NCBI GenBank assembly: GCA_021789555.1
Contig: JAJYJK010000017.1
Location: 1 to 46,933 of the forward strand
DNA length: 46,933 bases
Source of the DNA: Nitrospirota bacterium
GTDB lineage: Bacteria; Nitrospirota; Thermodesulfovibrionia; Thermodesulfovibrionales; JdFR-88
Reading direction: 5' to 3'
In this document: one piece after another, positions 37,571 to 45,123 of the stretch
Numbering within the stretch: the first letter of the stretch is position 1
How the letters are laid out: the number at the start of each line of letters is the position of its first letter
Translations under genes and position numbers: made by a program
The notes under the pieces: model-generated
Databases searched by the model: none
Told to the model about the DNA's origin: nothing
What the model saw: only the letters and a program-made list of their open reading frames with translations

Positions 37571-37624
37571 GTTGTCGGATTGCACATAAGCTGCAATGCG
37601 CATAAACTGCAATTTTCCGACAAC
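37571..37624. repeat. 54-bp element with 9-bp inverted ends, left of the CRISPR array
   Basis: Perfect ends GTTGTCGGA (37571-37579) and TCCGACAAC (37616-37624). Inside are two direct copies, GCACATAAGCTGCAAT and GCGCATAAACTGCAAT (14 of 16 identical). The segments CGGATTGCACATA (37576-37588) and TGCAATTTTCCG (37608-37619) recur reverse-complemented right of the tracrRNA gene (43992-44019). The layout resembles multiple-repeat ends of IS21-type elements. Confidence 0.65.
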
Positions 37625-37708: not shown

Positions 37709-39258
37709 GCTGGGGTTGGAAAACAGACGCCGCTCAAGTACAATCGATATCTCCGTTGGTATCAACGCAGACGCGCTGGGGTTGGAAAACAGACGCCGCT
37801 CAAGTACAATTGAATTCGCGGCTTCATCTTCCTCCCACAAGCTGGGGTTGGAAAACAGACGCCGCTCAAGTACAATAGGAGCGTGGTTTTCGCCCAGTCC
37901 ACGCGGCTGGGGTTGGAAAACAGACGCCGCTCAAGTACAATTAACCATCGAGTATTAAGCACCTGCCATCCGCTGGGGTTGGAAAACAGACGCCGCTCAA
38001 GTACAATGCAGCAGGAATATTTCCCGCAGGGCTCCCCGCTGGGGTTGGAAAACAGACGCCGCTCAAGTACAATCACTACGGACTGCGACTGCGCCACAAC
38101 GCTGCTGGGGTTGGAAAACAGACGCCGCTCAAGTACAATGGACTTATGGGTTGGACCTGGCCCGTCACCGCTGGGGTTGGAAAACAGACGCCGCTCAAGT
38201 ACAATCAGGCCGCGTGGGAAGTCCTTGCTCCCCGGCTGGGGTTGGAAAACAGACGCCGCTCAAGTACAATGGCCTGGGCTCAGTGCTCTACTGGCTGGTC
38301 GCTGGGGTTGGAAAACAGACGCCGCTCAAGTACAATCGGCAATCCCGGCTTGAGCAGCCAACTTCCGCTGGGGTTGGAAAACAGACGCCGCTCAAGTACA
38401 ATGTGCATGATTATATTGCCAGCCGGATTGAGGCTGGGGTTGGAAAACAGACGCCGCTCAAGTACAATCAACTCCCAACGATGAGAGCTGCATGAAAGGC
38501 TGGGGTTGGAAAACAGACGCCGCTCAAGTACAATTGTTTTTCGATAGCGCATTCACCCTGGAAGGCTGGGGTTGGAAAACAGACGCCGCTCAAGTACAAT
38601 GGCTTTAGGAAAGGGCATACGCAGGAAACGGCTGGGGTTGGAAAACAGACGCCGCTCAAGTACAATCGTGAAATACGTGTTCGCGTAGTAGCGCGGGCTG
38701 GGGTTGGAAAACAGACGCCGCTCAAGTACAATCGGCCAGACCAGCGCCACGCTTGACGTCCAGCTGGGGTTGGAAAACAGACGCCGCTCAAGTACAATCG
38801 GCCAGCGGGACCCTGGCGGTGACGGAGAGCTGGGGTTGGAAAACAGACGCCGCTCAAGTACAATGGGGGGGAGCGGGTTCATTTCTTCAGTTCCGCTGGG
38901 GTTGGAAAACAGACGCCGCTCAAGTACAATACAGTCAGGAGCGGGCAGCCGATGAACGTCGCTGGGGTTGGAAAACAGACGCCGCTCAAGTACAATCGGC
39001 CGCGGCCGTTGTAAGGACCTCGTCGGCTGGGGTTGGAAAACAGACGCCGCTCAAGTACAATCGATATGCTGGGGAAAAGCAGCGAGGAGTGCTGGGGTTG
39101 GAAAACAGACGCCGCTCAAGTACAATTGCGCGCCGCCTCTGGTCTGCTGTACATAGGCTGGGGTTGGAAAACAGACGCCGCTCAAGTACAATATCTATGA
39201 TAGTCTTGCCGCTCGCATTTATGCTGGGGTTGGAAAACAGACGCCGCTCAAGTACAAT
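37709..39258 (+). CRISPR. type II-C CRISPR array, 24 repeats and 23 spacers
   Basis: Twenty-four copies of a 36-bp repeat, which begins GCTGGGGTTGG and ends CAAGTACAAT, are separated by 29-30-bp spacers. By eye all copies are identical, including both terminal ones. The crRNA sense is the plus strand: this strand pairs with the tracrRNA anti-repeat at 43660-43695 and ends in TACAAT, as type II-C repeats of Neisseria do. Each repeat contains TTGGAA (repeat positions 8-13), 17 bp and TACAAT (31-36), a sigma70-like promoter that would start RNA about 6-8 bases into each spacer and leave about 23-24 bases of guide. No spacer visibly matches another part of the window. The array converges with the cas operon. 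Confidence 0.99.
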
Positions 39259-39307: not shown

Positions 39308-39646
39308 CTAAAAAAGCATCACCTGATCCGGTGGTTTTTCGGTTGGGTGCAGATTTTTCCCTCTGTAAATCTCCATTTTTCCGAACTGATGATCGGTTAC
39401 CGCCATCAGCCGGACTTCGCCTTTGGGCGGAAGGGCCTTCTTTAATCTTCGCCTGAACGCCTCGCTCCGCTCTTCGCTGGCGCAATAACGGGCATAGACG
39501 GAAAACTGCATCATAGTGAAACCTTCTTTCAAAAGAAACCCTCTGAATTTGGTATAAAGGTGGCGGGCTTCCTTCGTGTCCACCGGAAGATCGAACATCG
39601 CAAATAGCCACATGGAGCGATACTCCGAGAGTTCCAGCTTTTGCAT
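39308..39646 (-). CDS. cas2: CRISPR-associated endonuclease Cas2
   Basis: A 112-residue ferredoxin-fold protein that forms the Cas1-Cas2 spacer integration complex. Motif MWLFAMFDLPVDTKEARHLY includes the conserved D19; the strand FTMMQFSVYARYC and the helix EAFRRRLKKALPPKGEVRLM follow. Length and the GF.MMQ.SVY pattern are typical of type II Cas2. It starts two bases after the cas1 stop (TAA-AC-ATG), the last gene of the cas9-cas1-cas2 operon. Confidence 0.97.
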   Translation of the reverse strand: MQKLELSEYRSMWLFAMFDLPVDTKEARHLYTKFRGFLLKEGFTMMQFSVYARYCASEERSEAFRRRLKKALPPKGEVRLMAVTDHQFGKMEIYRGKNLHPTEKPPDQVMLF

Positions 39647-39648
39647 GT

Positions 39649-40536
39649 TTACACGGGAAGGAGAAGTGTCTTCCTTTTGCCCGAAAAAACGGACGCAAGC
39701 GAAGACGCCGAACGGGCCAATGAATCAAAAAGTCCCCTGCTTTCTCCGTCTATCACGAACCTCTTGTCCATCAGCGACTTGATGATGAAAGCCTTTGATT
39801 CCTTGCCTAATATGCAATCCCCGCCGCTCTTTTGGCCGAGGGCTAAAACAATGTCGTCCACAGCCGGGCGGTAAGGCTCCATCAGGTCGTCAGCAAGACA
39901 GAAACCGTTATATCTGTTGTGATGATGAAGGCCCAAAGAAGGATGAAGCCCCGCCGCGCATATTGCCCGCGCCGCTGCCGCCCTTAATACTGTATAGCCG
40001 TAATTAAGGAAGATATTTGGCCCAGGAGCATCGCGGTCTCGCGTGAATTCTTTTCCAAACAGCGCGCCCCAGTACCGGCGCGCCGCCTGCGCCTCGATAT
40101 TCGTGCAATCGCCAGAACCGACCCTTTCCGCAAGCATGAGCAACCCGTTGTTCCTCCCGCATTCTTCTTGAAGCAGATTTCCCTGGGCGCGCACTTTGGC
40201 GCGGACGATCTGCCTCCATAGCTGTTTTTTAAGCGGCAGGGAGGCCCGCACCTGCGCGGAGAACCGCTCTGTCTGGACGAAGTGCCCCTCAAAGGGCATA
40301 AGCATTCCGGCTGGCAGGTGCTTTTCGCCGCAAAGCACGAACAATCCGCCATACTGGCAAAGGCCGCTCAGGACGGCATTGGTGTAAGTGACAGCCGGAT
40401 GGGAGACAAGGAGCGCAGCCACTTCTGAAAGCGGCGCGATGCCCATTATTTCTCCATCCTTTTCGATCTGAAGCTGCGAGTGTTTAACGCTCACCCTCGC
40501 TGGGCCGTCGGAAATATCTATAATGCGCTCAGTCAT
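39649..40536 (-). CDS. cas1: CRISPR-associated integrase Cas1
   Basis: A 295-residue integrase. The metal-binding triad is visible: E148 in NIEAQAARRYW, H in LGLHHHNRYN (about 204-205) and E220 in LADDLMEPYRP. The N-terminal beta domain (about 1-75) and C-terminal helical domain are both complete. I chose ATG 40536, which gives the family start MTERIIDIS and overlaps the cas9 stop by eight bases (ATGACTGA); a longer upstream start would run 12 more codons into cas9. With Cas2 it inserts new spacers; in type II systems Cas9 helps choose PAM-flanked protospacers. Confidence 0.97.
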   Translation of the reverse strand: MTERIIDISDGPARVSVKHSQLQIEKDGEIMGIAPLSEVAALLVSHPAVTYTNAVLSGLCQYGGLFVLCGEKHLPAGMLMPFEGHFVQTERFSAQVRASLPLKKQLWRQIVRAKVRAQGNLLQEECGRNNGLLMLAERVGSGDCTNIEAQAARRYWGALFGKEFTRDRDAPGPNIFLNYGYTVLRAAAARAICAAGLHPSLGLHHHNRYNGFCLADDLMEPYRPAVDDIVLALGQKSGGDCILGKESKAFIIKSLMDKRFVIDGESRGLFDSLARSASSLASVFSGKRKTLLLPV

Positions 40537-43500
40537 TGGCCCGGCGCACTTTCCCAAGCGGGGTGACCACAACCTTACGGCATTTCATTTTTCGTAAAGG
40601 TTCCATAAGTGCGCTGAAGAAGTCATGCGACTTTTTCATATCGTCTATTTTGCGCGAATCGTTAAGCCGCGCATAAAAAATCCGCCCGTTCGATGCACGT
40701 GTTATTGTCCTCACTACATAAAGCTCTCTTTTGTCTTTTCCATCAAGTTCAATCACCTCTCCGCCAGCAAGCGAAAAAACGAACTCCTTACCTTCTCCAT
40801 GGTCGCGCTTAATTATCGGTTCCTCTTCGCGTTTCCTCCTGTAAGCTTTCAGCATGTCCACAACATAGCTTTTCCATTTCTCGTTTCCGTTTTTGTCCTT
40901 TGTCTTAACGATTTCGATATGATGATTGGAATCGGCCTGCACATAGCGCGCGTTGTCGCCGTCGCCTACCGGGAATACATCTAGCGATTTTCTGATCCTT
41001 ATTCTGTGGATGGGGATTTCTCTTCCATCTTTTGTTCTTATAACCGGATGGTTTTCCGGATGCGCAAAGACCTTTTTGGGCTCGCCTCCGCCAAGATTTT
41101 TCATTATGCTGTCCCGGACCAGCGGGTCCAGATAGTCCAGATTATTTTCGATGTCTTTCTTGCTCAATTGCACCAGCCCTTTGCGGACAAGGACGTATTT
41201 TTTGCCTTTCTCATCAGTTTTAGGTGGCGAATAAAAAGTCTCCTCATGGAGAGCGCCACGCACCCTTTTCGCTATGCGCTTTGAAACGGTGATGCCCAGG
41301 ATGCCTTCGCGCACGTCCTCAAAGAAACTATCCCATGGCTTCTGGACTGGCGCAAAGAGTTTTCTGCCCTTTTTGTTTTTTGCCGCCTCCGAAAGCTGTT
41401 TCACCATCGCGGTATCCGCAAGGGCGATGGCCACGGCGTCAACCGCATGGTGGCGGTGGTCGTCCCTGGATTTCCGCGGCCCGTCGCTCAGGACGGCATT
41501 CAGGCCAAGGGCGTTCCTGATATGGGCGGTCACCTGGCCCGTTGCCGCCTGAACCCTGCGCTTGCCTTCAGCGTCCTTACCATCATCGCTTAGTCCGCCG
41601 TATAGAAGGCCGAGATAACTCTTCGCGAGCCGGGTGGCGTATCTGGTGTCGTTAAGCTGTCTGGATGAAAAGGACTCCAATATCTCTTCAAGCTCCGCTT
41701 CCGTCAGCTTGAACCGCCTGTATTTTTCCCTTGCTGCGTCCCCTTTGAAATTTTTTACCCTTTCGAGTATCTGATCCCATGCCGGCATTTGGCCGTAAGC
41801 TTCAAAAGGCGTTTTATCGCCTTTTATACTGTTTTCTTCCGCATAGCACAGTGTTTTATTAAAAAAAGAGTTGTCCAGTGAGCGGTCAAAGGGGATGATA
41901 TGCTCAATATCAAACTGCGGGTTATCGCCAAGAAGCGCATTTATACTTATCGACTTGCCCGTATATGGGCACTTGCCATTGCATTCTTCCCACAAGAGCA
42001 CCTTAAGAATATCGTTCCGGCTGGGGTTGCCGTTGCCGGTTTCGTTAAGTATTTTGCGCGCCGCCTCTTCTCTTTTTCTTTCATTTGCGCGCATGTTCTT
42101 CCATGCAAGCTCCCTTTCTTTCGCGGGGCGCTTGAGATCGCGGGCCAGTTCTATGCGCATTATGCCGGGCTTGCCGTATTCGTCCGAAACAGCGTTCACA
42201 ACGCGCCGCAATTCGGTAAGTGCGCGCTCCACTAGCGGGTTTCTGATCTCGGCAAGACCTTCGGACCTTACGGGCGGAAGTTCATCCATTGGATTGCCAG
42301 TTTTATCGCGCCTGTCAGGATAAGTCTCATCTATAGCTGTTGCAAGCGGTTTGCCTTTTTCCAGCAACGGAACAAGCCGCTCGATTGCCTTTTTGGAATA
42401 ATTGCAGTAGCCATCCTTAAGTTCGATGGAACCGAACTCCTCCGCCTGCTCTTCGTCCAGACCCCAGGCTTTCATTCCCCGTTTTTTTAGCGTTTCGTCC
42501 TTGACCGTGCTCCTGACCTCATCCACTACAGCGGCTTTTTCCTCTTCTGTGAATCCGTCCCAGCGCCCTTTAAAAATGTCCCTGAGCGCGCTGGCCGTGA
42601 GATTGCCTGGAAGTTTCTTTTCGCCTCCGCGTTCCAGATTGAATTCCGTCCCCTTTAGATTAAGCATTTTTCTTATAGCGGTAAATTTGATGTCGCCTTC
42701 GGTCTCCAGGGCTTTAATAAGTGTATTTCTTTCTTCCGGATTAAGCGGGCGCTCGTCAAAGCCCTTAGCCACTTTCAGGTCGTTTACTTTTTGCAGATAT
42801 CTGAAGCGCTGGGCCATAAGCAAGGCCCATGGCGCTCGTCTCTTCCCTTCTTCCAGCGTGCAAAAACCTATTAACTCCTTTTGGCTTTTAAGAGGGCGCT
42901 GGAAATAAATTGCATGGTGTATTTTCTTTTTGAGCCCATCGCTCAAAATATCAGGATGGCCGGTTTTCTGGGTCTCCCATATCCGCTCGAACTCGTCCTC
43001 GTACATTTTTCTGGCAGTATGTCTGCCCTTCACCCGCGTGCCGTCTGCATGGAGTGTATTAAAGTGCTCGCCTAGTGTTTGCGCACCCGACTCTTCAATT
43101 TCCTTCCGGAGTCCCGCAATCTCACTTTTTATTACCCCCTTATCCTCATCTTTTTTGAGGGGCGACTTGCGATTGCTCAGGAACCCTCTTTTTTGTCCCA
43201 GGTGATAAAAGACCCGGCCAAGCTCGAAAAGTTCCAGCCGCCTGCTCAGGGCATCGGCCCTCAATTGCAAAGGAGGCAAAAGCCCTTTATCGAGTGCAGT
43301 AAAAAACTCGTGCCTTTCCCCGGGGGCGCTCAAATTGCCGGAAGGCAACAGGCCAGTACGCTGGAGGAGCCGCGCAAGGTGTGCCTGTCTTCTTGATCTG
43401 CGGTCGCACTGCCGCCTTCTGAGCCTGGCCTCTCTGCGGGCTATGTTTCGTGATTTACCTTTCCCGTCCTTTTCAATCCCTTCCAGGCCCTCCTCAAATA

Positions 43501-43609
43501 CCCTCACTCCGGTATCAATCAGCCGAACTGGTCTTTGCTCTTTGGACTCGAACAACGCCCACCCTATCGAATTCGCGCCGAGATCTAAGCCCAAGATGGT
43601 GTCCCCCAT
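40529..43609 (-). CDS. cas9: compact type II-C Cas9 nuclease
   Basis: A 1026-residue RNA-guided nuclease. RuvC-I is ILGLDLGANSIGWALF with D9. The arginine-rich bridge helix covers about 51-88. The recognition lobe, about 90-470, is short. RuvC-II is MRIELARDLKRPAKERE with E487. HNH is CPYTGKSISI...FDIEHIIPFDRSLDNSFFNK with catalytic H570 and N593 downstream. RuvC-III is DDHRHHAVDAVAIA with H721 and D724. The PAM-interacting region is about 790-1026. All catalytic residues are intact. Size fits II-C (Neisseria 1082, Campylobacter 984). There is no csn2 or cas4, consistent with II-C. A GGGGG ribosome site lies just before ATG 43609. Transcription probably starts from the promoter in the anti-repeat. 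Confidence 0.98.
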   Translation of the reverse strand: MGDTILGLDLGANSIGWALFESKEQRPVRLIDTGVRVFEEGLEGIEKDGKGKSRNIARREARLRRRQCDRRSRRQAHLARLLQRTGLLPSGNLSAPGERHEFFTALDKGLLPPLQLRADALSRRLELFELGRVFYHLGQKRGFLSNRKSPLKKDEDKGVIKSEIAGLRKEIEESGAQTLGEHFNTLHADGTRVKGRHTARKMYEDEFERIWETQKTGHPDILSDGLKKKIHHAIYFQRPLKSQKELIGFCTLEEGKRRAPWALLMAQRFRYLQKVNDLKVAKGFDERPLNPEERNTLIKALETEGDIKFTAIRKMLNLKGTEFNLERGGEKKLPGNLTASALRDIFKGRWDGFTEEEKAAVVDEVRSTVKDETLKKRGMKAWGLDEEQAEEFGSIELKDGYCNYSKKAIERLVPLLEKGKPLATAIDETYPDRRDKTGNPMDELPPVRSEGLAEIRNPLVERALTELRRVVNAVSDEYGKPGIMRIELARDLKRPAKERELAWKNMRANERKREEAARKILNETGNGNPSRNDILKVLLWEECNGKCPYTGKSISINALLGDNPQFDIEHIIPFDRSLDNSFFNKTLCYAEENSIKGDKTPFEAYGQMPAWDQILERVKNFKGDAAREKYRRFKLTEAELEEILESFSSRQLNDTRYATRLAKSYLGLLYGGLSDDGKDAEGKRRVQAATGQVTAHIRNALGLNAVLSDGPRKSRDDHRHHAVDAVAIALADTAMVKQLSEAAKNKKGRKLFAPVQKPWDSFFEDVREGILGITVSKRIAKRVRGALHEETFYSPPKTDEKGKKYVLVRKGLVQLSKKDIENNLDYLDPLVRDSIMKNLGGGEPKKVFAHPENHPVIRTKDGREIPIHRIRIRKSLDVFPVGDGDNARYVQADSNHHIEIVKTKDKNGNEKWKSYVVDMLKAYRRKREEEPIIKRDHGEGKEFVFSLAGGEVIELDGKDKRELYVVRTITRASNGRIFYARLNDSRKIDDMKKSHDFFSALMEPLRKMKCRKVVVTPLGKVRRAND

Positions 43610-43622
43610 TTTTTCATCCCCC

Positions 43623-43652
43623 TTGACAAATTCAGTTTAGCTATGTTACAAA
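43623..43652 (+). promoter_or_regulatory. tracrRNA promoter
   Basis: Perfect -35 TTGACA (43623-43628), 18-bp spacer, -10 TACAAA (43647-43652). It would start RNA at about 43659-43660, the first base of the anti-repeat. It overlaps the cas9 leader on the other strand. Confidence 0.65.
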
Positions 43653-43659
43653 CCTTATA

Positions 43660-43688
43660 ATTGTACTTGAGCGGCGGTTGTTCTTCAA
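43660..43688 (-). promoter_or_regulatory. cas9 promoter embedded in the anti-repeat
   Basis: Read on the minus strand, the anti-repeat contains TTGAAG (43688-43683), 17 bp and TACAAT (43665-43660), the same layout as the promoter in each CRISPR repeat. It points at cas9 and would give a leader of about 45 bases. Thus one DNA segment would be both tracrRNA body and cas9 promoter. The motif is seen; activity is inference. Confidence 0.55.
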
Positions 43689-43768
43689 CCCTAGTAAGAG
43701 ATAACCGTCTCGAAGGTCTTGCCCCGAGGGGCAGCCAAAGCCCGTGCATCCACGGGCTTTATTTTTTT
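43660..43768 (+). ncRNA. tracrRNA
   Basis: The first 36 bases form an anti-repeat: 17 bases (43660-43676) are perfectly complementary to the 3' end of the CRISPR repeat. The rest pairs with a few mismatches, several of them G-U; the part facing the crRNA repeat start reads CTTCAACCCTAG. Three hairpins follow: GAGA-TCTC (43698-43711), TGCCC-CGAG-GGGCA (43720-43733), and a strong terminator AAAGCCCGTG-CATC-CACGGGCTTT (43737-43760) ending in A-T7. Transcribed divergently from cas9. Predicted length is about 109 bases. Confidence 0.9.
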
Positions 43769-44506
43769 GTCCTTTTCTAAAAGGTTCCTGCAGGTTGACA
43801 CTTAAAATTTCTGGGTCTTAATGTGCTCGTTCATTTCGGTAACCGGGATTTGTCAGCATTTTATGCCTCATAAACCATGGGAATTAAAGGAATTATTTTT
43901 AGATTAAATGAAAATACAGTTTATGCGCAAAAATTTGGGGTTTATAGCAGCTTATGCGCAAAAAATGGTCGTAAGTCCTTGATTATTCATCCGGAAAATT
44001 GCAATATATGTGCAATCCGTCAGGCGGGTAGTAGAGCTGCCGGAAGAGAAGAAAAGTTTTGGACGTTTCAGTGAAAGGCTGGTAAGGACCGATAAGAAAA
44101 AAACCGGCCAGGAAAAAAGGGCGCAGGACGTCAGTGCCCGAGACATCAGAGCCAAAGAAATCAGGGATTGGGAAGACGAAAAAACTGCTCTTCCTGGCAG
44201 TGGTTCTCGCCGTCGCAGTTGTGATGGCCCTCCGGGGCTGTCCAAGGTCCCGGGGGAGCTGGCATGGCGCATCGAGCCATCCGGACCGTAAGGCCACGGC
44301 CCGTCTGCTTATCCAAGCCCCTGCCTGTCAATACAACTCCTGACCCGGGCAATTCATGCGAAGGCAGCCATCCAAAGCGGCATCGCGCCTTGTCCCTGGT
44401 AGTGTCAAATATTTTTCCAACATTTGATCCGGCCGGCAGTTTGAAGAAAACGGGTTTTAGAGCAAAAAGGCAAAAAGGCGGACCAGTCCGCGGACCAGCC
44501 CGCGTG
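43769..44506. other. gene-poor remnant region right of the CRISPR-Cas locus
   Basis: No convincing complete gene. It contains insertion-sequence-like motifs: CAGTTTATGCGCA (43917-43929), GCAGCTTATGCGCA (43947-43960), and CGGAAAATTGCA...TATGTGCAATCCG (43992-44019). These are reverse-complement relatives of the 37571-37624 element. A copy of GTAAGTCCTTGATT lies at 43971-43984. The part before 44020 is AT-rich and the part after is GC-rich, marking a junction. A possible small membrane protein (44134-44343) lies inside. Confidence 0.5.
44134..44343 (+). CDS. possible small membrane or lipoprotein
   Basis: A 69-codon frame from GTG 44134: basic start PETSEPKKSGIGKTKK, then one strongly hydrophobic helix LLFLAVVLAVAVVMALRG-C, then a polar tail. 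A clean transmembrane helix behind a Lys-rich segment is unlikely by chance but not proof. The Cys after the helix is lipobox-like, but R in position -2 is unusual. No ribosome site is clear. Unrecognised family; may be a fragment. Confidence 0.3.
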   Translation: MPETSEPKKSGIGKTKKLLFLAVVLAVAVVMALRGCPRSRGSWHGASSHPDRKATARLLIQAPACQYNS

Positions 44507-44845
44507 TCAATCCGGGGGGCCGTACTGGAATATGTCCATCTCGGGGCCGAGATTGGGCAGGCCGGCTATCTTCCATGCGGTTGCCGGATCGATGAAGCCC
44601 TGGGTTATGCAGTCTTTCGGCCGGTGCACGTTTCTGCATACGGCGCGGATTATGGGGAAAAAGTGATACCGCGTGTAATAGCCGCGCATGAATTTCAGGG
44701 CGTCGAGCATATCGGGGGGCAGCTCCTTTATGCCCTCTTTTTTTGCGAGCGCGCGGGCGACCTCCTCGTCCCAGTCCTCGAACCGGAGCAGATATCCCTG
44801 CTCGTCAACGGCGATCCTGCGCCCGCCAAGCTCAACCTCCGGCAT
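44507..44845 (-). CDS. DsrC/TusE-family protein lacking the redox cysteines
   Basis: A 112-residue DsrC-like protein. The N-terminal pattern (DEQGYLLRFEDWDEEVARAL, KKEGI.ELP) and helical middle (MLDALKFMRGYYTRYHFFPIIR) match DsrC/TusE. The C-terminal arm normally reads A-C-K-I-A-G-L-P followed by Cys ten residues after the first. Here W91 replaces the first and E102 lies where the second is expected, with an extended tail MDIFQYGPPD. Two other cysteines occur at C70 and C79. DsrC carries sulfur as a trisulfide between sulfite reductase and the membrane. Members without these cysteines have been proposed to be regulatory. It lies 20 kb from the sulfate-activation genes. Confidence 0.85.
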   Translation of the reverse strand: MPEVELGGRRIAVDEQGYLLRFEDWDEEVARALAKKEGIKELPPDMLDALKFMRGYYTRYHFFPIIRAVCRNVHRPKDCITQGFIDPATAWKIAGLPNLGPEMDIFQYGPPD

Positions 44846-44919
44846 GGCCTTATTGTATCACACCGGATGGCCTCCGGCATCCCTGCGCTTTTTTACACGG
44901 GCAGGAGGCGGGGATAAGC

Positions 44920-45123
44920 ATGGCTCGCATCATTCTCGCCGGACATCCTGTCCGGCTCCGAGGCTTTTGCCGTCGAGCGACGGACAAAGAACATTTATCA
45001 TATACATGTCCGGACTGCCGGCAAAAAAATCCGCTCGCATGCCATCCCCCCCTCCTGCCTGACCCGGCCCAAGTAGACTTCCACTTTTTTTGGCGGTATC
45101 AGTTTCTTAGGAAGCCGATGTGA
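44920..45123 (+). CDS. possible small protein coupled to the YihY-family gene
   Basis: A 67-codon frame from ATG 44920, with AGGAGG 11 bases upstream (44903-44908). Contains one Cys pair, TCPDCRQKN. Its TGA (45121-45123) overlaps the GTG start of the next gene (GTGA), so coupling is possible. Composition is not strongly protein-like and no family is recognised. GGACATCCTGTCC-type inverted repeats (44940-44953) lie within it, so the segment may instead be regulatory. Confidence 0.3.
   Translation: MARIILAGHPVRLRGFCRRATDKEHLSYTCPDCRQKNPLACHPPLLPDPAQVDFHFFWRYQFLRKPM

Follow-up and report, generated by a model that had tools for sequence, protein, structure and literature searches.

The tracrRNA gene of this Nitrospirota CRISPR-Cas locus lies directly upstream of cas9 on the opposite strand, and the reverse complement of its anti-repeat spells a sigma70-like promoter aimed at cas9. 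This raises the question of whether the anti-repeat starts the cas9 mRNA, or whether its promoter-like letters simply reflect the repeat with which it has to pair. We addressed this in the 46,933-nt stretch of DNA that holds the locus (hereafter the window) and in a survey of related type II-C loci.

A complete type II-C locus with tracrRNA beside cas9

By its sequence, the locus is a complete type II-C system in which tracrRNA and cas9 stand back to back (Table 1). The genes cas9, cas1 and cas2 are consecutive, csn2 and cas4 are absent, and the array comes directly after cas2. The array is on the plus strand and the cas genes are on the minus strand, and every repeat (24/24) carries TTGGAA-N17-TACAAT on the crRNA strand, with TACAAT at its 3′ end; this agrees with the description of II-C repeats as ending in a sigma70 -10 within an array convergent with the cas genes (PMC4607530). 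The predicted tracrRNA comprises an anti-repeat with a promoter and a terminator, and its duplex with the repeat is predicted at -55.8 kcal/mol; comparison of the predicted tracrRNA with Rfam gave no match.

Inverted repeats (84%; 37573-37597 and 43998-44022) bracket the entire CRISPR-cas locus. The left copy resembles a small palindromic element, and the motif recurs elsewhere in the genome; on contig C86, for instance, two copies in inverted orientation are separated by about 80 bp. The bracketing copies are possibly the ends of a mobile element. Going upstream from cas9, the first recognised gene on its strand is DsrC-like (PF04358; 44507-44845, minus strand).

Table 1 Features of the CRISPR-cas locus and of the region between cas9 and tracrRNA
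Feature	Coordinates	Strand	Basis or remark
CRISPR array, 24 x 36-nt repeat GCTGGGGTTGGAAAACAGACGCCGCTCAAGTACAAT	37709..39258	+	convergent with cas genes
cas2	39308..39646	-	TIGR01573, E 1.8e-19
cas1, type II, NMENI type	39649..40572	-	TIGR03639, E 1.2e-73
cas9, 1026 aa, type II	40529..43609	-	TIGR01865, 708.7 bits (cut-off 100); HNH_4, RuvC_III and Cas9_a domains
cas9 ATG	43609-43607	-	sequence
Predicted cas9 5′ leader, 44 nt, over tracrRNA promoter	43610..43653	-	inferred from -10 position
cas9 Shine-Dalgarno AAGGGGG	43618..43624	-	sequence; 2 bp common to tracrRNA -35
tracrRNA promoter -35, TTGACA	43623..43628	+	best plus-strand site within 43501-43720
tracrRNA promoter -10, TACAAA	43647..43652	+	18 bp from -35; predicted start ~43659
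Possible second tracrRNA -10, TATAAT (TTCAGT-N19)	43656..43661	+	8.0 bits; consensus hexamer overlapping anti-repeat start
Predicted tracrRNA, start to T-run past terminator	43659..43768	+	promoter upstream; fold z-score -3.9
Anti-repeat, 5′ part of tracrRNA	43660..43694	+	86% complementary to all 24 repeats
Proposed cas9 promoter -10, TACAAT, within anti-repeat	43660..43665	-	17 bp from -35; predicted start ~43653
Proposed cas9 promoter -35, TTGAAG, within anti-repeat	43683..43688	-	sequence
Intrinsic terminator of tracrRNA	43737..43760	+	10-bp stem, then ATTTTTTTG

Two predicted promoters facing each other

Promoters were scored with a textbook sigma70 matrix, and starts were predicted 7 nt past each -10. 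Both sites proposed in a first-pass annotation of this DNA are present with the letters and positions given there: TTGAAG-N17-TACAAT on the minus strand of the anti-repeat (43688-43660), aimed at cas9 and 50 nt upstream of it, and TTGACA-N18-TACAAA on the plus strand just before the tracrRNA (43623-43652). The latter scores 9.6 bits, or 10.6 when the TG one base upstream of TACAAA (in TGT) is counted as an extended -10. If TATAAT at 43656-43661 served as the tracrRNA -10 instead, the tracrRNA and cas9 starts would lie 15 bp apart.

At 10.5 bits, the anti-repeat site is the top sigma70-like site on the minus strand across 1.4 kb (43608-45000), where the runner-up reaches 7.9; in the rest of the window, sites of at least 10.4 bits occur at about 0.13 per kb per strand. 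The window's 50-nt cas9 leader held no other significant promoter (p=0.45). Such a score is nevertheless unsurprising, because an anti-repeat that must pair with repeats bearing a 10.2-bit promoter is expected to have a promoter-like reverse complement; these letters by themselves are no evidence of function.

The two -10s face each other across 7 bp, and the predicted starts (~43659 rightward for tracrRNA, ~43653 leftward for cas9) diverge with about 6 bp between them. What overlaps in the window is thus promoter DNA and the melted region. The first-pass annotation had described facing promoters whose early transcripts overlap; the facing pair stands, and the transcripts are instead predicted to run back to back.

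Layout and strength among II-C loci

The survey took in 80 loci from genome contigs together with relatives from the window's phylum, all of them relatives of this Cas9; viral contigs held four distant Cas9 relatives only. We analysed 89 II-C loci, 69 with an intact stem and 20 without the distal stem; in all of them the anti-repeat is found on the upstream side of cas9, and its repeat-like strand reads in the same sense as cas9. Their record titles include Zixiibacteriota, Nitrospirae, Ignavibacterium, Krumholzibacteriota, Acidobacteria, Hydrogenedentes, Synergistaceae, Planctomycetota, Lentisphaerota and Verrucomicrobia, among others. Cultured organisms that share the layout include Blastopirellula marina DSM 3645 (L097), whose long leader has a candidate promoter of its own, Terriglobus albidus DSM 26559 (L084) and Geomobilimonas luticola JCM 17780 (L057). 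The -10 retains T1, A2 and T6 in register in 67/89 loci, where the median leader is 50 nt. The tracrRNA -10 begins 7-9 nt beyond the anti-repeat end in 59 of the 69 intact-stem loci, which sets the two -10s 6-8 bp apart, although this fixed spacing could be a mere consequence of the tracrRNA starting at the first anti-repeat base. The cas9 Shine-Dalgarno and the tracrRNA -35 have bases in common in the window (43618-43628), and TGTCAA leads directly into a purine-rich Shine-Dalgarno in 21/69 loci.

The two promoters differ in strength. tracrRNA promoters scored better than shuffles at p<=0.05 in 56/69 loci, and across all 69 their median is 10.6 bits, against 4.9 for the cas9-facing site, which by these scores is weak outside the group of the window's close relatives. 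Of the short-leader loci that retain the -10 (54), 21 have no cas9-facing site within 300 nt that scores above the anti-repeat site, and in 32 it ranks among the top three. The cas9-facing site is weak in most loci because its -35 is degraded relative to the repeats: TTG at proper spacing is found in 32/41 repeats versus 12/41 anti-repeats (Wilcoxon p=1e-5), and a bulge-like AAAAG or ACAAG often takes its place in the latter. The idea that the anti-repeat shares the layout of the repeats is therefore true of the window and the loci nearest to it and fails for II-C loci generally. Besides the window, 17 loci retain the -35 TTG at the same position, and most of these are its nearest relatives by Cas9. 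In a related set of loci (L113, L114, L138, L139 and L140) the anti-repeat -10 is out of register, and TTCCCA in the anti-repeat with TAnnnT 16-17 bp downstream scores as a cas9 promoter.

Leader promoters and losses of the -10

A leader promoter scoring at least 9 is present in 10/20 loci without the distal stem versus 9/69 others (p=0.001), examples being TTGACA-17-TATATT in L078 and TTGAAA-17-TATATT in L076. We drew this contrast, which compares loci by loss of the entire distal stem, once the alignments had been seen, and clustering at 70, 60 and 50% Cas9 identity gives p=0.01, 0.10 and 0.075, respectively; it lends weak support to a promoter role for the anti-repeat. Loss of T1A2T6 is weakly linked to a leader promoter (Mann-Whitney p 0.02-0.03; Fisher 0.09), and anti-repeat and leader promoter scores show no anticorrelation (rho -0.05). 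The 15 short-leader loci without an in-register -10 mostly have no clear replacement promoter, and none was clear by sigma70 scoring in alpha- and betaproteobacterial and Pasteurella loci with a lost or broken -10. A first impression of clear promoter replacement in Lentisphaeria proved true of some independent lineages only.

Of the leaders longer than 75 nt, 14/20 have their own promoter, compared with 5/69 shorter ones. Some loci place these elements differently. In Ilyobacter (L148) the tracrRNA is oriented as cas9 and the -10 copy is absent; L085 has a 437-nt leader and has lost the last T of the -10, and Pasteurella (L153) has a 105-nt leader and has lost the first T. The tracrRNA of C. 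jejuni is encoded downstream of the array, and because its pairing is confined to repeat nt 2-25, the -10 is not copied (PMC4607530). These placements are compatible with the promoter idea, but there are few of them and they stand far from the main set.

Conservation of the anti-repeat

The first-pass annotation had also held that mutations in the anti-repeat must satisfy both RNA pairing and promoter function. Across the 39 distinct loci whose distal stem is paired, the -10 hexamer shows 3/234 changes and the six adjoining positions also 3/234; because the two change equally, conservation in these alignments does not point to selection for a promoter on top of that for pairing. A wobble test for such additional constraint (T->C 1/78 vs 3/94, p=0.38) had too few events. 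Dual constraint thus finds no backing in a -10 conserved no better than its non-promoter stem neighbours, nor in the long-leader loci with their own promoter, 9/14 of which retain the anti-repeat -10 as pairing alone predicts. Intact anti-repeats that had lost the motif were named in advance as evidence against the proposal, and these were found in part: most intact anti-repeats have a degraded -35, and the -10 is broken in several that are otherwise paired (L042, L044, L063, L082, L085, L090, L111, L112 and Pasteurella L153).

Repeat and anti-repeat match exactly over their distal 12 bp, where G:U wobble affects 4/210 G/T sites compared with 32/199 in the proximal half (Fisher 1.5e-7). At positions -7 to -12, promoter function offers no explanation for the low distal wobble.

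Origin of the cas9 transcript

Given no competing site nearby, a leader free of other significant promoters and the same position in 18 loci that also keep the -35 TTG, the best available reading is that the back strand of the anti-repeat is a cas9 promoter, which we consider probable, if well short of assured, in this clade. II-C repeats bear a sigma70 promoter from which each can start its own crRNA; the anti-repeat has to pair with the repeat, so that its reverse complement holds the same promoter. Since the tracrRNA gene is divergent and just upstream of cas9, the copied promoter points at cas9, whose mRNA would start about 44 nt before the ATG, and the tracrRNA promoter would then lie inside the cas9 leader in opposite orientation. 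With the -10s facing each other 7 bp apart, the open complexes would melt nearly the same DNA, leaving room for one polymerase at a time; it is possible that at these facing promoters one RNA polymerase excludes the other, at the step of binding.

The main alternative is that the site is a by-product of pairing with little or no promoter function, cas9 being expressed from elsewhere, for example by upstream read-through. The equal conservation of hexamer and distal-stem flank, the mostly lost -35, the -10s retained beside leader promoters, and the intact anti-repeats whose broken -10 has no visible replacement all speak for it. Against it, no other strong minus-strand site occurs in the window up to 45000, the window's relatives also retain a scoring -35, neither the position of the site nor the length of the leader varies across phyla, and read-through would place antisense tracrRNA within the cas9 mRNA. 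We regard this account as somewhat unlikely.

The remaining alternatives concern how the two promoters interact. It is very improbable that convergent promoters set the tracrRNA:cas9 balance through interference between overlapping early transcripts, as first proposed. Although both promoters are present and facing, the plus start is predicted further right (43659) than the minus start (43653), which is not a collision-type convergent layout, and predicted starts likewise diverge, by a median of 7 bp, in almost all of the 69 loci; moreover, in a study of five bidirectional promoters of E. coli, basal transcription did not reach levels at which they would compete (PMC12825309). A classical pseudo-symmetric bidirectional promoter with one -10 region, formed by TATAAT (43656-43661, plus) and TACAAT (43665-43660, minus), would draw on the second plus-strand site (TTCAGT-19-TATAAT, 8.0 bits), and its starts about 15 bp apart would fall within the 7-25 bp by which bidirectional pairs are defined (PMC10268837); the main pair is predicted at 6 bp here, with a median of 7 bp in relatives. 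The TTGACA site is stronger, however, and sits at a position conserved in relatives, a start at 43668 would cost the anti-repeat its first 8 nt, and the main pair has two separate -10s rather than the single shared one of the 18-bp layout. We therefore hold the pseudo-symmetric promoter to be quite improbable.

The facing layout of the tracrRNA and proposed cas9 promoters is, as read from these loci, unusual and widely conserved, and a cas9 promoter within the anti-repeat is expected from known parts. A broader proposal, that the interlocked pair is deeply conserved in II-C, with the repeat promoter copied by complementarity and used for cas9 in a melted region that it shares with the tracrRNA promoter, polymerase choice setting how much Cas9 mRNA is made relative to the RNA cofactor, and the cas9 promoter evolving in a coupled manner with repeat and tracrRNA, seems unlikely to us. 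If cas9 does start in the anti-repeat, one DNA segment would serve RNA pairing, a crRNA-like promoter and cas9 expression; the very short, constant cas9 leader of II-C loci would be explained, changes in the repeat would be coupled to cas9 expression, and trimming or cloning of a II-C tracrRNA region may delete the native cas9 promoter.

Comparison with known systems

Promoters within II-C repeats are known from Campylobacter jejuni and Neisseria (PMC3656092, PMC4607530), and crRNA promoters within repeats are experimentally established in C. jejuni (PMC3656092). The present locus resembles these in its 36-nt repeats ending in a sigma70 -10 and in an array convergent with the cas genes; there the internal promoters are known for crRNA transcription only, whereas here the motif also occurs in the complement of the anti-repeat. 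A tracrRNA gene immediately upstream of cas9, equipped with a promoter and a terminator of its own, is likewise described for the divergent II-C locus of Bordetella pseudohinzii (PMC4624362) and for EH CRISPR-Cas9 (PMC10281378); in the portions of these papers drawn on here, the tracrRNA promoter alone is noted and the anti-repeat is not named as a cas9 promoter. Nor did we find a paper that names it so in the part of the literature covered.

Bacterial bidirectional promoters have divergent starts a few bp apart, as predicted for this locus, and mutually exclusive polymerase binding, as proposed for it. According to Warman et al. 2021, as cited in PMC10268837, most of them use a single symmetrical -10 and place their starts 18 bp apart (range 7-25), in contrast to the two separate -10s here, which face each other 6-8 bp apart with predicted starts ~6-7 bp apart. 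In type II-A systems, too, the tracrRNA locus is tied to control of the cas9 promoter: a long tracrRNA, tracr-L, whose 5′ extension matches Pcas beside a PAM, guides Cas9 to Pcas and brings about autoregulation (PMC11417352). There the link is Cas9 itself, guided to its promoter; the link proposed here is shared promoter DNA.
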